A DNA stretch of 64,000 nt from Microtetraspora malaysiensis (GTDB taxonomy: Bacteria; Actinomycetota; Actinomycetes; Streptosporangiales; Streptosporangiaceae). Where the stretch lies: NCBI RefSeq assembly GCF_001528665.1, contig NZ_BBYJ01000006.1:62001-126000 (forward strand), written 5' to 3'. How positions within the stretch are numbered: position 1 is the stretch's first letter; each line of letters starts with the position of its first letter. The notes beneath the pieces are model-generated. The model had not been told where the DNA came from. It saw nothing but the letters and a program-made list of their open reading frames with translations, and searched no databases. Positions 4,248-28,328 of this stretch are shown in pieces. The position numbers and the translations under genes are program-made.

Positions 4248-5180
4248 ATGAAGTTCGTGACCACCTCTGCCCGGTCGCTGATCGCGCTCGGGCTCGGCCT
4301 GGCCACAGTGGGCGCCATGGCTCTGCCGGCCGCGGCGGACACGCTGAACCTGCGGCTCACCGCCGCCACCCGGTCGGCGACGGCTCCCGCGCAAGGCGCT
4401 TACTGGCATACCAAGATGCTGCGGACGGCCACCCACCCCTGGCAGTTCGGGAAGGGGACGAACCGCTACTGGCTGGAGGACCAGCGAGTCTTTGAGCAGT
4501 GGACCTCGCCCGATGGCAAGGCCTGGGTGGGGCAGCGGAACCTGGGGGTCCACCCCAAGAGCGCGGCGGACGAGGAGGCGTGGCGTCGCGACGGCTCCCC
4601 GGCCACGTGGAAGCGCGCGGCGAACGGCTCGGCCGTGTCGCTGTCCAGCGAGCCGGACAAAGGCAGGGTCTTTCCCGTGAAGGCCCCGGCCACGTTCTCG
4701 CTGGCCGGGCAGCGGCTGTCCTACGAGCAGCTCCAGGAGTTGCCCGCGGACGCGGCGGGGTTGAAGACCTGGCTCGAGAAGGCCGCGCGCGCCGCCAAGG
4801 TTGCCGATGACGTCGTCGCCGGTTACGTGACCCAGGCGCTGACCACCCTGCTGAGTGACCTTCCGGCGCCGAAGGAGGTCCGCGCCTCCGCGTACAAGGC
4901 GCTGCCGACGATGCCCGGCGTCCGCTCCCTGGGGGCGGTCAAGGACTCCCAGGGCAGGGCCGGCGAGGGCCTGTCCGTCGGCCACGGGCGGACCCGCCAG
5001 AAGTTCGGCACGATCGCGTCCACGACCGAGCTCATCGTCGACACCGACACGATGCTGCTGCTGGCCGACAGCCTGACGACCACGATCAACGGCAAGCCGT
5101 TCCTGGACAAGACCTGGACCGAGACCGTGCTCCAGGTCGGCTGGACCGACGACAAGCCGTCGGTTCCCGCTCTCCAGTAG
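4248..5180 (+). CDS. secreted CU044_5270-family protein
   Basis: The 310-residue product begins with a Sec-type signal peptide ending at about residue 30 (LPAAADT). It then shows the landmarks of the CU044_5270 family: an early YWHTKM-like segment, a W-rich region with DGKAWVGQR, the block LSYEQLQELPAD, and PGVRSLGAVKDSQGRAGEGL. These proteins are commonly encoded beside SigE-family sigma factors, and their activity is not known. Here the gene is divergent from the sigma gene and has a matching promoter, so it is probably a regulon member exported in response to the sigma factor. GGAGGAA precedes the ATG. Confidence 0.8.
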   Translation: MKFVTTSARSLIALGLGLATVGAMALPAAADTLNLRLTAATRSATAPAQGAYWHTKMLRTATHPWQFGKGTNRYWLEDQRVFEQWTSPDGKAWVGQRNLGVHPKSAADEEAWRRDGSPATWKRAANGSAVSLSSEPDKGRVFPVKAPATFSLAGQRLSYEQLQELPADAAGLKTWLEKAARAAKVADDVVAGYVTQALTTLLSDLPAPKEVRASAYKALPTMPGVRSLGAVKDSQGRAGEGLSVGHGRTRQKFGTIASTTELIVDTDTMLLLADSLTTTINGKPFLDKTWTETVLQVGWTDDKPSVPALQ

Positions 5181-23561: not shown

Positions 23562-23775
23562 CGGTCGCTCCCCACTTCCGCACGTCCGCGGGATGTCGAG
23601 TGGAGATCTCCCCAAATAATGCGATCTGCACGCTTCTACGGGATCCACTGGCCGGAGAGAAGCCGCGAACGGCGGAGCCGTGCGGAGGCGGGGTTCTCCG
23701 GCGACGAGACGGAGCTGAGTTATGTGCGTACGGGCCGCCGTCGACGACGGTGCCGGACGGCGTACGCGGGAAGTG

Positions 23776-24001
23776 CGGGAGCCGGTCGCTCGACCCGCTC
23801 GTGGGCTACCACCGGCGCCACCAGGGGGAGCTGCCGCGGACCTGCGGCATGTTCTCGGACCGTTCGTGGAACGCGTGCGATAAGTGGCCGTACGTCCACG
23901 TCAACACGGTGCGGTTCCGGATCCGCCGCATCGAGGAGCTCAGCGGATCTCTCCTCGATGGCGGACCGGGTGGATCTGTTACCTCGCGCTGCGGGCGGAT
24001 G
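23776..24001 (+). pseudogene. C-terminal remnant of a PucR-family regulator
   Basis: The plus strand encodes LDPLVGYHRRHQGELPRT, then SWNACDKW and HVNTVRFRIRRIEELSG. These match the C-terminal helix-turn-helix of PucR regulators (LL.YD..H...L..TL.....SWN..A..L.VHVNTVRYRI.RIEELTG). The next matching segment, DLSSMADRVDLLPRA, lies in a different frame, so a frameshift separates them. Nothing of the large N-terminal part is recognisable. PucR usually controls purine degradation and is often divergent from xanthine dehydrogenase genes, which fits this position. The surrounding 23562-24058 stretch holds no other gene. Confidence 0.65.
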
Positions 24002-24058: not shown

Positions 24059-24190
24059 TCAGCAGCACCAGTCGCGGAGTGCCTGCCCGGGGGAAGACGT
24101 GGCGGCGTTCACGGCCGTAGCATTTGTCGCAAGAACCACACTGGTTGAGAAGAGAACAGCCAAGGCAGAGACGATGAGTCGGCGGCGCAT
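24059..24190 (-). CDS. small secreted peptide precursor (43 residues), divergent from an HTH-TPR regulator
   Basis: The minus strand from ATG 24190 encodes 43 residues. They begin MRRR, then a hydrophobic core LIVSALAVLFSTSVVLA, then small residues with possible cleavage after ATA or VNA, ending in SPGQALRDWCC. A strong ribosome binding site (AGGAG, six bases before the ATG) supports expression. Codons are less GC-rich than in neighbouring genes. It has the form of a pre-pro-signal peptide: an N-terminal secretion signal and a short C-terminal part. It sits 55 bases from the divergent start of an HTH-TPR protein, the architecture of peptide receptors such as PlcR. It could also be a truncated secreted protein, since the mature part is very short. 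Confidence 0.6.
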   Translation of the reverse strand: MRRRLIVSALAVLFSTSVVLATNATAVNAATSSPGQALRDWCC

Positions 24191-24207
24191 GATCAGCTCC
24201 TGTCGGA

Positions 24208-24221
24208 AAATCGTCTGATTT
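24208..24221. promoter_or_regulatory. palindrome in the peptide/regulator divergent promoter
   Basis: AAATC-GTCT-GATTT lies midway between the two start codons (24190 on the minus strand and 24246 on the plus strand), in the only AT-rich stretch there. It is a candidate operator for the HTH-TPR protein controlling both genes. Confidence 0.4.
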
Positions 24222-24245
24222 ACACCATTCTTGCAGGGGGAGCCC

Positions 24246-25538
24246 GTGACGAGTCAAGATCTAGTAGGCCAGCGCATCAAGATGATTCGCCGTCAACGTG
24301 GTCTTTCCCAAGCTCAGCTCGCACATCCGGAGCTTTCGGACAGCTATGTCTCGCTGATCGAGAGTGGAAAGCGGACGCCCACTCCGGCAGTTTTGGAACT
24401 GCTCGCTCAGAAGCTCGATTGTTCGCTCACTTATCTGATCAATGGAGTGACCGCCGAGCAGATGGAGGAGCTGGAGCTCGGTCTGCGCTTCGCCCGGCTC
24501 GCCCTGGACAACGGCGAGGTCGAGGAGGCCCGGCGCCGCTTCGGCGAGCTGCTGGCGGACCGGAGCCTGATCGGGCTCTCCCAGCTCCACCAGGACGCCG
24601 AGTTCGGCTACGCGCTCGCCGCCGAGGCGTGCGGCCACCGCGGCGAGGCCATCGCGATCCTCAACCGCCTGCTCGACACCGAGGCCGGGATCATGCCCGA
24701 GGACCGTCGGGTGGCGATCGCCGTCGCGCTGTGCCGGTGCTACCGCGAGAAGGGCGACCTCGGACCCGCCGTCGAGGTGGGCGAGACGATGCTCAAGGAC
24801 ATGAACCGGACCACCTGGACCGACGACCTGATCGAGCTCGCCGCGACCCTGCTCGCCGCGTACGGCGTGCGCGGCGACCTGCTGCGCGCCACCCAGTTCG
24901 CGAACGAGCTGCTCGCCGCCGCCGACCTGCTCGGCACGCCGCGCGCGACCGTCGCCGCGAACTGGAACGCCGCCAGGATCGCCGAGCTGACCGGCCGGGG
25001 CGAGGAGTCGATCGCGCTGGCCGAGCGTGCCCTGGCCGTACAGAGCGAGAACGGCGACTCGCGCAACCTCGCCCGGCTCCGCCTCGCGTACGCGATCCTG
25101 CTGCTCCGGGTCCGCCCGGACGACCTGGAGACGGCCCGCGACCTGCTGGCGCGCACCCACCGGGAGCTCGGCGAGTCGGCGGCGAGCAGGGCCGACATCG
25201 CCCGCTGCTCGGTCTTCCTGGCCCGCACCGAGCTGGCCCTGGGCCGCCCGGAGGAGGCCGCCGAGCACGCCCTCGCCGCCAAGGACCTGATGGAGGAGCC
25301 GCACGGCGAGCTGCGCTCCGAGGCGCACCTCGTGCTCGGCCAGGCGTACGAGCAGCTCGGCAGGCGCGAGGAGGCGGCGGCCGAGCTGGCCGCGGCCGGC
25401 GAGTGGCTGGAGCGCTCCCCCAAGATCAGGATTGCCGCGCAGGGCTGGATGGAGGCCGCCGAGGCGTTCCAGCGCATCGAGGACGGCTCCGCGAGCACCG
25501 CCGCCTACCAGCGCGCGCTCGCCTGCGTCGGCCTGTAG
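24246..25538 (+). CDS. XRE-type HTH plus TPR regulator (RRNPP-like architecture)
   Basis: The 430-residue protein has an N-terminal helix-turn-helix (about 5-60: GQRIKMIRRQRGLSQAQLA, then DSYVSLIESGKRTPTPAVLE). The remainder, about 75-430, is a series of helical TPR-like hairpins. Typical examples are ARRRFGELLADRS, AIAILNRLL, ESIALAERALAVQ, EAAEHALAAKDLM and QAYEQLGRREEAAAEL. This domain order matches peptide-binding RRNPP regulators (PlcR, NprR, Rap). The start is GTG 24246 preceded by GGGGGAG. A 43-residue secreted peptide gene is divergent from it. It may sense that peptide after re-import. Other actinobacterial HTH-TPR proteins exist without a known ligand, so this is an inference from architecture and position. 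Confidence 0.85.
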   Translation: MTSQDLVGQRIKMIRRQRGLSQAQLAHPELSDSYVSLIESGKRTPTPAVLELLAQKLDCSLTYLINGVTAEQMEELELGLRFARLALDNGEVEEARRRFGELLADRSLIGLSQLHQDAEFGYALAAEACGHRGEAIAILNRLLDTEAGIMPEDRRVAIAVALCRCYREKGDLGPAVEVGETMLKDMNRTTWTDDLIELAATLLAAYGVRGDLLRATQFANELLAAADLLGTPRATVAANWNAARIAELTGRGEESIALAERALAVQSENGDSRNLARLRLAYAILLLRVRPDDLETARDLLARTHRELGESAASRADIARCSVFLARTELALGRPEEAAEHALAAKDLMEEPHGELRSEAHLVLGQAYEQLGRREEAAAELAAAGEWLERSPKIRIAAQGWMEAAEAFQRIEDGSASTAAYQRALACVGL

Positions 25539-25734: not shown

Positions 25735-26340
25735 ATGAGAAAATCCCCGCTTGCGGCCGTCGTCGCCTTCGTTGTGACCCTCCTGCTCGGCACGGCTCTC
25801 GCCATGCCCGCGCTGGCCCACACCTCGCTCCGGAGCAGCGACCCGAAGGAGAACTCCCGGGTCGACGCACTCACGAAGGTGAACCTGACCTTCTCGGAAT
25901 CGGTCCGCTACCCGGTCGTGCTGGTACGCGGCCCGGACGGCCGGCAGTACGAGTCGGGCACCCCGGCCGTCCACGGCTCGGAGGTGACCCAGGCCGTGTC
26001 CGGCTCCCTGCCCGCCGGAAAGTACAGCGTCGCCTGGCGGGTCGTCTCCAGTGACGGTCACCCGATCGAGGGAGAGATCCCGTTCACGGTGACCGGCTCC
26101 GCCGCGGCCGGCCAGGACGGAACCGAAGCCGCCGCCGTGGCGCCTTCCACCCCGGCCGCCTCCGATGGCACGCCGGCCCCCGAGCAGAGCGCCGCGCCGG
26201 CCGCGGCGACGGCGGCGGCGGACGATCAGGCCGAAGCGGACGCGGGCAAGGGCGGCGTCCCGGCCTGGGTGTGGATCGTGGTCTTCGGCATCGGGGGCGT
26301 CGGCATCGGGATGGCCATCAGCATGCGGAAGAAGCCATGA
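25735..26340 (+). CDS. copC: CopC-domain copper-binding protein
   Basis: The 201-residue protein has a signal peptide ending ALA, so the mature form begins with His29 (HTSL), the copper ligand typical of CopC. The CopC domain runs to about residue 122, with SSDPKENSRVDALTKVNLTF and the second histidine in SSDGHPIEGEIPF. An Ala/Pro-rich linker leads to a C-terminal membrane helix (VPAWVWIVVFGIGG) with a basic end. It binds copper outside the membrane and is expected to hand it to CopD. The stop overlaps the next start as ATGA, so the two are translated together. Confidence 0.92.
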   Translation: MRKSPLAAVVAFVVTLLLGTALAMPALAHTSLRSSDPKENSRVDALTKVNLTFSESVRYPVVLVRGPDGRQYESGTPAVHGSEVTQAVSGSLPAGKYSVAWRVVSSDGHPIEGEIPFTVTGSAAAGQDGTEAAAVAPSTPAASDGTPAPEQSAAPAAATAAADDQAEADAGKGGVPAWVWIVVFGIGGVGIGMAISMRKKP

Positions 26341-28328
26341 GCCGCGCCGCGCGTCTGGGCATCGCCGCCGTCTGCGCGGCGGTCGTCGCGCTGGTGATCG
26401 CGATGGTGGCCGGAGGCGCGGCCAGCCCGCGCATCATCCCCGGGCTGCCCGACGAGGGCGCGTTCACCCGGTGGATGCTCCCGCTGTCCAAGCTCGCCAT
26501 GGACGGCGCGGGCCTCGTCACGATCGGCCTGCTCGTGATGAGCGTCGCGTTCCTCCCGAGCGACAAGGGAGTGCTCGGCAAGCCCGCCCAGGAATACGTC
26601 AAGGCCGCTTCCTGGTCGGCGCTGGTCTGGGCGGCCGCGGCCGCGGCCGCCCTCGTCTTCAACCTGTCCGACGCGCTCGGCATGCCGGTCGCGGACGTCC
26701 TCGGCGGCAACGAGCTGACCAGCTACGCCAGCCAGGTCCCGCAGGGCATCTCGCTCACGCTGGTCGTGCTCTTCGCGGTCGCCGTCGCGTTGTTCGCGCG
26801 CGGCGCGATCACCGTCGGCGCGGCGGCGGGGCTGCTGCTCTTCGCGGTGGCGACGCTGCTGCCGCCGGCGCTGACCGGCCACTCGTCCTCCTCGCCCAAC
26901 CACAGCCTCGCCACCACCTCGGTCGCCTTTCACGTGATCTTCCTGGCGCTGTGGGTGGGCGGCCTCGGCGTGCTGTGCGTGCACGCCTACCGCGGCGGCG
27001 ACCGGCTCGACGTCGCCGCCGCGCGCTTCTCCCGGATGGCCCTCTGGTGCTTCGCCGGCGTCGGGCTGTCCGGCGTCGCGAGCGTCCTCGCCCGGCTCGC
27101 GTCGGTCGAGGAGCTGTTCACCACGTCGTACGGCCTGCTGATCGTGGCCAAGACGGTGGCGTTCGCCGGGCTCGGCGTGATCGGCTGGTGGCACCGCGGC
27201 CGCACGGTGCCCGCGCTGGCCGCCGGGAAGCCCGGGGCGTTCCTGCGCCTCGCCCTCGGCGAGATCCTGCTCATGGCCGCGACGATCGGCCTGGCCGTCG
27301 CCCTCGCGCGCACCGCCCCGCCGGTGATCAAGGGGCCGATCGACCGCGCCTACGAGCTGCTCGGCTACCTCGTGCCGCCGCCGATCTCGGTGGGCAACCT
27401 GGTGACGCTGTGGTGGTTCGACCTGTTCTTCGCGATCGTCGCCGCCGCCCTCGCCGGCCTCTACGCGGCCGGTCTGGTACGGCTGGCCCGCCGGGGCGAC
27501 GCCTGGTCGCACGGCCGGACCGCCGCCTGGTTCCTCGGCGTCATCGTCCTCGTCATCGCCACCCAGAGCGGCGTCGCCAAGTACGCGCCGGTGCTGTTCA
27601 GCGTCCACATGTCCGAGCACATGGTGCTCGCCATGCTGGTGCCGATCCTGCTCGTGCTCGGCGCGCCCATCACCCTCGCGCTGCGTGCGCTCAAGCCCGC
27701 CGTACGACGCGGCGACCGGGGCCCCCGCGAGTGGCTGACCGTGCTCCTGCACAGCCGCTACGCCAGGTTCATCGCGCACCCCGCGATCGCGACCGCGATC
27801 TTCATCGTGTCGACGTACGCGCTGTACTTCACCCCGCTGTTCGCGGCGGCGATGGAGGAGCACCTCGGGCACATCGCGATGACGGTCCACTTCCTGGTGA
27901 GCGGCTGCCTGTTCTTCTGGGTGATCATCGGGGTGGACCCGGGGCCGCACCGGCTGCCCCACGTCGGCCGGTTGCTGCTGCTGTTCATCACCATGCCGTT
28001 CCACGCGTTCTTCGGCATCGCGCTGATGAGCATGACCACGATCCTCGCCCCCGAGTGGTACGGCCAGCTCGGCCGCACCTGGGGCGCGTCGTCGGTGTCA
28101 GACCAGCAGACCGGAGGGGCGATCGCCTGGGGGTTCGGCGAGATCCCGACCCTGATCGTGGTCCTCGCGCTGGCGCTGCAGTGGTGGCGGGCCGACGACC
28201 GGCAGGCCCGCCGCGCCGACCGCCGGGCCGAGCAGCGGGCCGCGAAGGTGGGCGGCACCGGCGACGCCGAAATGGACGCCTACAACGACTACCTCGCCAA
28301 GCTGAACAAGCGCGACACCGCCCAGTGA
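26337..28328 (+). CDS. CopD / CtaG fusion: copper import and cytochrome oxidase assembly
   Basis: The 663-residue membrane protein joins two domains. Residues about 1-340 are CopD-like, with eight or so helices and the His motifs GHSSSSPNHSLATTSVAFH. Residues about 365-640 are a Caa3-type CtaG domain with HMSEHMVLAMLVPILLVLGAP, MTVHFLVSGCLFFW and FHAFFGIALMSM. CopD moves copper across the membrane with CopC, and CtaG delivers copper to cytochrome c oxidase. The fusion is known from other actinobacteria. It overlaps copC by four bases. The pair is probably a copper supply route for respiration. Confidence 0.92.
   Translation: MSRAARLGIAAVCAAVVALVIAMVAGGAASPRIIPGLPDEGAFTRWMLPLSKLAMDGAGLVTIGLLVMSVAFLPSDKGVLGKPAQEYVKAASWSALVWAAAAAAALVFNLSDALGMPVADVLGGNELTSYASQVPQGISLTLVVLFAVAVALFARGAITVGAAAGLLLFAVATLLPPALTGHSSSSPNHSLATTSVAFHVIFLALWVGGLGVLCVHAYRGGDRLDVAAARFSRMALWCFAGVGLSGVASVLARLASVEELFTTSYGLLIVAKTVAFAGLGVIGWWHRGRTVPALAAGKPGAFLRLALGEILLMAATIGLAVALARTAPPVIKGPIDRAYELLGYLVPPPISVGNLVTLWWFDLFFAIVAAALAGLYAAGLVRLARRGDAWSHGRTAAWFLGVIVLVIATQSGVAKYAPVLFSVHMSEHMVLAMLVPILLVLGAPITLALRALKPAVRRGDRGPREWLTVLLHSRYARFIAHPAIATAIFIVSTYALYFTPLFAAAMEEHLGHIAMTVHFLVSGCLFFWVIIGVDPGPHRLPHVGRLLLLFITMPFHAFFGIALMSMTTILAPEWYGQLGRTWGASSVSDQQTGGAIAWGFGEIPTLIVVLALALQWWRADDRQARRADRRAEQRAAKVGGTGDAEMDAYNDYLAKLNKRDTAQ

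Follow-up and report, generated by a model that had tools for sequence, protein, structure and literature searches.

Introduction

The closest described counterparts of the locus studied here are peptide-receptor systems of the RRNPP type. In Bacillus, the receptors of NprR-NprX and Rap-Phr are superhelices of tetratricopeptide repeats (TPR) that bind re-imported peptides; Rap has no DNA-binding helix-turn-helix (HTH) domain, the peptide genes of both systems lie adjacent to and co-directional with their receptors, and we know of no Cys-Cys tail in either. PlcR-PapR of the Bacillus cereus group comes nearer still, sharing with our locus an N-terminal XRE-type HTH followed by TPR and an adjacent short precursor of exported type whose C-terminal end is the presumed signal. 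Here we describe, in a 64,000-nucleotide stretch of the actinobacterium Microtetraspora malaysiensis (contig NZ_BBYJ01000006.1, positions 62,001 to 126,000; hereafter the window), a gene for a small secreted-type peptide ending in Cys-Cys (CC) that lies divergent from an HTH-TPR regulator, and we argue that the two are probably a peptide-receptor signalling pair whose relatives extend across the phylum.

RRNPPA systems are described in Firmicutes, the group surveyed, in the sections available of one account (PMC9765709), and the accessible text of another likewise places RRNPP receptors in Firmicutes and mentions Streptomyces for butyrolactones only (PMC13220807). The signals of Actinomycetota are typically small molecules according to the available part of a third source (PMC10075063), while excerpts of a fourth treat gamma-butyrolactones as central and also mention "cyclic or modified peptides" (PMC4748050). 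The gamma-butyrolactone systems, given in those excerpts as the phylum's known one-component signalling (PMC4748050), differ from the present pair in having a small-molecule signal, an unrelated receptor and no encoded peptide. An intracellular TPR receptor with an encoded peptide was not found in the portions of the actinobacterial signalling literature that were searched, and a literature search that did not cover preprints and most subscription journals found no description of this peptide-regulator pair.

The peptide gene and its divergent regulator

A preliminary description of this DNA had proposed a minus-strand gene for a 43-residue secreted-type peptide, preceded by AGGAG and divergent, by 55 nucleotides (nt), from a regulator with an XRE-type HTH and TPR-like repeats. 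Both proposals proved correct, the peptide gene to the base and the regulator by its coordinates and its Pfam domains. The features of the pair, in window positions, are as follows.

24059..24190, minus strand: candidate pheromone precursor gene, 43 codons plus TGA; each of the 80 named loci (defined below) has a comparable frame in this position
24197..24201, minus strand: AGGAG ribosome-binding site of the peptide gene
24104..24190, minus strand: signal-peptide part, residues ~1-29, judged from the sequence, with cleavage placed by eye near AVNA/NAA
24062..24103, minus strand: likely mature segment, about TSSPGQALRDWCC, with an approximate boundary; variable apart from its tail
24062..24067, minus strand: C-terminal Cys-Cys codons, the invariant tail (CC in 72/81 rows)
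24191..24245, no strand: divergent intergenic region of 55 nt (ATG to GTG), with promoters expected inside it or overlapping the genes
24235..24242, plus strand: the regulator's ribosome-binding site, AGGGGGAG, conserved among the aligned relatives
24246..25538, plus strand: regulator of 430 residues with an XRE-type HTH and about nine TPR units; candidate receptor for the peptide in the cytoplasm
24267..24443, plus strand: HTH DNA-binding domain, residues ~8-66 (Pfam)
24453..25526, plus strand: TPR superhelix, residues 70-427, nine A/B helix pairs (Pfam and structural model)

The peptide frame starts at an ATG and its product is MRRRLIVSALAVLFSTSVVLATNATAVNAATSSPGQALRDWCC, in which by eye a short positive start, a hydrophobic stretch and an A-x-A type end precede the short tail TSSPGQALRDWCC. 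Scoring secretion signals throughout on the n-region and hydrophobicity, without a dedicated predictor, we found it to be the only CC-tailed secreted small frame in the window under the criteria of our script. The regulator starts at a GTG at 24246, with an alternative TTG at 24231 that would add five residues, and its closest named relative, from M. fusca, is 96% identical. Pfam identified HTH_3 (E 1e-11) and three TPR families over their cut-offs, and an AlphaFold2 model (mean predicted local distance difference test score, pLDDT, 92.1; predicted template modelling score, pTM, 0.83) places nine A/B helix pairs after the HTH, so that the HTH-plus-TPR architecture of RRNPP/RRNPPA receptors is present by both routes.

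Recurrence of the pair in Streptosporangiaceae

Among 60 relatives searched, regulator matches at E 1e-20 were found in 22 genomes, and a divergent frame ending exactly in CC accompanied 14 of 16 close orthologues, the window's own included; locus L026 was left out of this count because its upstream DNA is missing. We then defined as named loci the best 80 of 185 confirmed Streptosporangiaceae loci, which together with the window make up 81 rows. In each of the 80, a short frame occupies the corresponding position and has a signal sequence like that of the window's peptide, homology of the peptides being judged by place and signal sequence. The frame ends exactly in CC in 71 loci, in W-x-x-P-x in eight (GWNHPD twice, GWNHPG, GWVYPG, PWGYPI, SWSYPD, GWSYPD and GWGYPD) and in neither in one. 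The expectation that a short secreted-peptide frame would sit beside homologous regulators is thereby borne out among close orthologues; some more distant members of the regulator family have no such frame.

Comparable criteria recovered a single CC-tailed secreted frame in 1,036,618 nt of flanking DNA, or four in 989,077 nt when up to two residues were allowed after CC, and only 4 of 4379 frames able to hold a small open reading frame end in CC. The window contains a single CC-tailed secreted frame, and the arrangement recurs by CC tail in 71/80 loci and by place and signal sequence in 80/80, which is more than chance. The single control frame (L081, 5340, minus strand, tail DAPRCC), from Spongiactinospora sp. 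TRM90649, is apparently a duplicate of the peptide gene, situated about 1.7 kb upstream of the regulator's start.

Constraint on the peptide

The two Cys codons vary synonymously among the 72 CC rows (70 TGC and 2 TGT at one, 68 and 4 at the other), while the residue just before them is of 15 kinds. Across 17 non-overlapping close pairs, the ratio of nonsynonymous to synonymous change (pN/pS) was 0.61 in the signal part (before the last 16 codons) and 0.88 in the mature part, and the Cys codons had undergone 3 synonymous and 0 nonsynonymous changes. This is the pattern that would be shown by a translated gene whose last two residues are fixed and whose mature part changes fast. A constrained C-terminus, as expected of RRNPP/RRNPPA precursors, is therefore present, and the proposal that this end of the peptide is conserved across relatives held, both in the 71 CC-tailed loci and in the absence of nonsynonymous Cys changes. 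Ten diverse peptides yielded no NCBIfam or Pfam match over a curated cut-off, only matches below it, which shows that such peptide genes escape family models.

A tail switch matched by changes in the regulator

On a maximum-likelihood tree of the 81 regulators, the nine non-CC rows all fall on one side of one branch with 100/100 support, and the change from CC to WxxP happened once on that tree, in the clade of Streptosporangium, Planomonospora and Planobispora. Using a threshold fixed in advance, we identified 17 regulator positions outside the HTH that separate the CC from the non-CC group, 13 of which lie on TPR A-helices (binomial p 0.005). The positions concentrate in three successive A-helices: those of repeats 4-6, 52 residues in all, hold 8 of the 17 (p 0.0013, for a region chosen post hoc). 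In successive repeats, E197 and A237 share one register position, as do T201 and N241; these positions would face the groove, the register being taken from the TPR motif rather than from coordinates. Three codons are associated with the type of tail.

24846..24848, plus strand: T201 codon, tail-associated; Q in 8/9 switched regulators
24966..24968, plus strand: N241 codon, tail-associated; N in 0/9 switched regulators
25065..25067, plus strand: N274 codon, tail-associated; R in 8/9 switched regulators

Among distant regulators, T201 is kept in 27/36 that are paired with CC, 1/12 paired with a tail containing Trp-Pro or Phe-Pro (W/F-P), 2/19 without a tail peptide and 0/7 paralogues; the corresponding raw counts are 21/36, 0/12, 3/19 and 0/7 for N274 and 30/36, 8/12, 6/19 and 0/7 for N241. 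T201 and N274 hence separate CC-paired regulators both from the W/F-P and from the no-peptide groups.

Extent across Actinomycetota

The regulator is matched in 68 of 394 sampled genomes of the window's class. A further set from this class, L133-L196, gave 64 loci for scoring; L006, L012-L014, L020 and L132 were scored separately. L189 is the only second Streptosporangiaceae copy in the set, which also omits six places in other families where the match was weak or partial. Allowing up to two extra residues, 49 of the 64 have a CC-tailed secreted frame, which is divergent in 35, convergent just downstream in 13 and co-directional in one; five have a WxxP frame, and ten lack a tail peptide, two of these (L167, L168) being cut by contig ends. 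One or two residues follow CC at L191, L195, L196 and L215. Counted by lineage, a tail peptide is present in 11/15 of the further loci of the window's own family and in 43/49 of those in eight other families. Four loci of one of these families, labelled f21 (L157, L158, L161 and L165), carry a pair of CC-tailed secreted frames flanking the regulator: a divergent one, and a convergent one with a longer tail (e.g., DTPDGGSDFCC). The pair could possibly be two signals for one receptor.

Among the matching places that yielded loci, two other classes pair the regulator with a very short secreted frame in 16 of 22 loci (11/13 and 5/9), identical start regions being counted once and L243, L244 and L254 lacking the N-terminus. 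Their tails include YPWPK, FPWPK, NWPHH, NWPKH, NWPHVP, GWPKH and KWPWG, and three join both kinds of ending (APWPHCC, APWPPCC and APFPGCCG), which hints that the W/F-P and CC tail types are related. Elsewhere in the loci of the other classes and of a family labelled f20, about 195 kb held six W/F-P-tailed frames on both strands, giving a rough chance estimate of 0.4 divergent W/F-P cases across all 56 loci, against 12 seen. Three f20 loci (L221, L224 and L225) have divergent secreted-like frames with a shared "ALVxAAxAGP" region and no CC or W-P tail; these are perhaps a further tail type. Tail labels are clustered on an 89-row tree, on which CC requires at least 11 changes on well-supported branches, pointing to frequent gains, losses or missed peptides.

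Among mobile elements, a phage search gave one unannotated contig, which holds no CC frame, and ten viral contigs match the regulator in the HTH region only. Six of the records matched in a plasmid collection were examined, four of which lack a CC peptide; a chromosome-sized record of Nonomuraea gerenzanensis from that collection (L227) has a divergent one. On a Streptomyces goshikiensis plasmid (L229), a CC-tailed secreted-like frame at 4601 (plus strand), annotated as a hypothetical protein, lies directly downstream of a regulator relative and co-directional with it.

Relation to RRNPP and other described systems

Searching the family profile against PDB, we found PlcR to be the best natural match (profile positions 2-185, E 1.3e-15), after three engineered TPR proteins. 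Foldseek ranked the PlcR-PapR7-DNA complex fourth, and structural alignment with VIA-align gave Z 22-24 for the peptide receptors Rap and NprR. The interpretation after PlcR/PapR offered in the preliminary description is supported by the TPR positions that changed with the tail and by the PDB match, although TPR folds are generic and unrelated eukaryotic TPR proteins score as well. No RRNPP-specific Pfam family appears among the regulator's 14 Pfam matches, and the regulator stands outside the described Bacillota RRNPP clades, its nearest named relatives being Microtetraspora, in Actinomycetota.

Several differences from PlcR-PapR accompany these likenesses. Aside from the phylum (Actinomycetota rather than Bacillota), the TPR array is longer here (430 residues in the regulator, against 293), the gene order is mostly divergent and sometimes convergent, peptide binding is a prediction, and the tail is Cys-Cys or W/F-P where PapR7 is ADLPFEF, as given in an abstract. 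A TPR protein likewise belongs to the FxSxx-COOH system (NCBIfam NF040586), which is also named for a short C-terminal motif; the match to it is weak (32.5 bits, far below the 300-bit cut-off) and its tail is different. We regard the pair as RRNPP-like by anatomy and as a putative member of that family; the Cys-Cys and Trp-Pro tails and the phylum are new to us.

Intergenic region and neighbouring genes

The start-to-start distance is 50-63 nt in 77 of the 81 rows and 15-22 nt in the other four, where the script chose a start nearer the regulator. A palindrome had been noted between the two starts, and a 5-bp-arm inverted repeat, AAATCGTCTGATTT, does lie there at 24208-24221, along with two further short inverted repeats in the same 55 nt. 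A role for it as a shared operator was rejected, the repeat being present in the M. fusca row, with no sign of it in the rows shown for 13 other relatives. In family f21 (L153-L166 and L147-L152), a different palindrome, CTGTCATGACAG, covers the regulator start codon in 11/12 rows shown of one group, and the other group has the core TGTCATGACA in 6/6 rows. This palindrome sits behind a -10-like AATACT or AATAGT and is perhaps an autoregulatory operator, a better candidate there than AAATCGTCTGATTT, with a transcript that may be leaderless.

The nearest neighbours of the pair in the window are the following.

23651-23947, plus strand: remnant of a PucR-type regulator, C-terminal part, 49-56% identity over ~100 of 500 residues
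25735-26340, plus strand: CopC, directly after the regulator
26271-28328, plus strand: CopD-CtaG fusion, following CopC

The PucR remnant is the one neighbour for which an earlier characterization of the surroundings as otherwise decaying is true. Since a full-length PucR gene lies on the same side of the regulator in 38/80 relatives' loci, the gene has decayed in the window's lineage, next to a peptide gene that is intact. Of the 80 named loci, 79 have a CopD/CtaG-type neighbour (a separate CopC was resolved by the script in 36 only) and 69 an M24 peptidase gene; a CopD match occurs in 80/81 rows, window included.

Weighing the interpretations

An RRNPP-like intracellular peptide-receptor signalling pair, widespread in Actinomycetota, is the interpretation we favor, with a rough probability of 0.75. 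Several observations weigh against it. Within the switched clade, the similar precursor of Planomonospora sp. ID82291 (L131) ends in GPLNNAE, neither CC nor WxxP. Beyond the close orthologues, a tail peptide was found in 0/30 loci of a third other class (that of genome G527; one locus had only 204 nt upstream), a CC or W/F-P tail in 0/4 loci of family f20, and no recognizable peptide either at L144-L146, close relatives in the window's own family, or beside a paralogue in the same genome. The residue counts in distant regulators ignore phylogeny, E197 is kept in just 8/36 of the distant CC regulators, and N241 separates CC from no peptide and not clearly from W/F-P, where 8/12 keep it. Among 71 CC rows, a partial Mantel test revealed that tails track the TPR part of the regulator beyond CopD (r 0.384, 0/2000 permutations), and the signal part tracks the regulator nearly as well (0.306), so that we read the result as co-inheritance rather than coevolution specific to the tail. 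Unrelated TPR proteins, LGN and those of APC/C, score Z equal to Rap and NprR, which means that the fold alone proves little, and the concave groove invoked below is deduced from TPR register and a helix list rather than measured coordinates.

The cysteines and the genes after the regulator together suggest an alternative in envelope copper or thiol redox sensing, where the CC peptide would bind Cu(I) or form a vicinal disulfide and the regulator would control copC and copD-ctaG. Two cysteines side by side could plausibly serve as a metal-binding or redox group, and the CopD/CtaG neighbor is nearly constant among the named loci. CC and CopC/CopD nevertheless come apart in both directions: none of 49 loci of other families has CopC/CopD within 3-6 kb, yet 43 carry CC peptides; L016 and L017, of the window's family, have CC peptides without CopC/D; and WxxP-tailed L133, L136 and L140-L142 keep both CopC and CopD. 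The conserved neighbors, moreover, also include the M24 peptidase (69/80) and PucR (38/80). We therefore rejected a copper/redox operon as the general theme and consider this explanation improbable. A small precursor with a conserved C-terminal Cys and a variable core would also suit a modified peptide antibiotic, or a ribosomally synthesized and post-translationally modified peptide, with the regulator acting locally. We judge this very improbable, given that no modification enzyme or dedicated exporter was recognized in the larger neighbour clusters of the 80 Streptosporangiaceae loci (by eye, with five Pfam checks), that WxxP replaces CC in one clade and Cys-free W/F-P tails occur in another class, and that none of the ten diverse peptides matched NCBIfam or Pfam over a curated cut-off.

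That the strongest constraint falls on the last two residues, and that changes in the TPR go with the switch of tail, argues against a toxin-antitoxin-like module of a small membrane-acting toxic peptide and its repressor, for which the divergence of a small hydrophobic peptide from an XRE regulator might speak; with neighbor genes stable in one family and no sign of mobility there, we give this explanation hardly any credence. Self-sensing shares its whole anatomy with a signalling pair: the regulator would bind the peptide, and the output would report secretion or proteolysis in the same cell rather than cell density. The fast-changing mature part, with 15 kinds of residue at -3, fits strain-specific signalling better, if not exclusively, and self-sensing seems to us rather unlikely. 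We therefore retain the RRNPP-like signalling pair as the best account of the locus.

Proposed mechanism and implications

What the analysis shows is the gene pair and its recurrence across large evolutionary distances, evolutionary signs that the peptide is translated, the constraint on its tail and the joint switch of tail and regulator. Under the signalling interpretation, the precursor would be exported and cut after its Sec-type signal sequence, and the C-terminal peptide (about TSSPGQALRDWCC, perhaps trimmed further) would be re-imported by an oligopeptide ABC transporter, import being possible in that the genome has 29 SBP_bac_5 matches. The Cys-Cys end would then dock in the concave groove that TPR repeats 4-6 form with their A-helices, and binding would alter the regulator's grip on DNA at the 55-nt shared promoter region and at further targets, presumably in dependence on cell density. 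Peptide and receptor would diversify together into lineage-specific pherotypes. Taken as a whole, the evidence makes the pair a strong candidate for signalling between cells by a type of system described until now from a different phylum of bacteria. The preliminary description had not recognized the CC signature, the switch of tail or the spread of the pair through the phylum.

A bolder and, in our estimation, doubtful extension is that these peptides form an old, phylum-wide pheromone family with a free C-terminal Cys-Cys (or Trp-Pro) end, in which the vicinal cysteines are part of the signal chemistry. A strained vicinal disulfide might then exist outside the cell and the reduced form be read inside, so that the signal would report both the presence of kin and successful import. 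If this were true, the Streptosporangium/Planomonospora/Planobispora clade would be a natural experiment in which ligand and pocket were both swapped.

Direct tests can start from the strains named here, from synthetic peptides of exact sequence and from the candidate specificity residues, and a conserved pair of this kind would open up peptide signalling in a phylum that makes many antibiotics.

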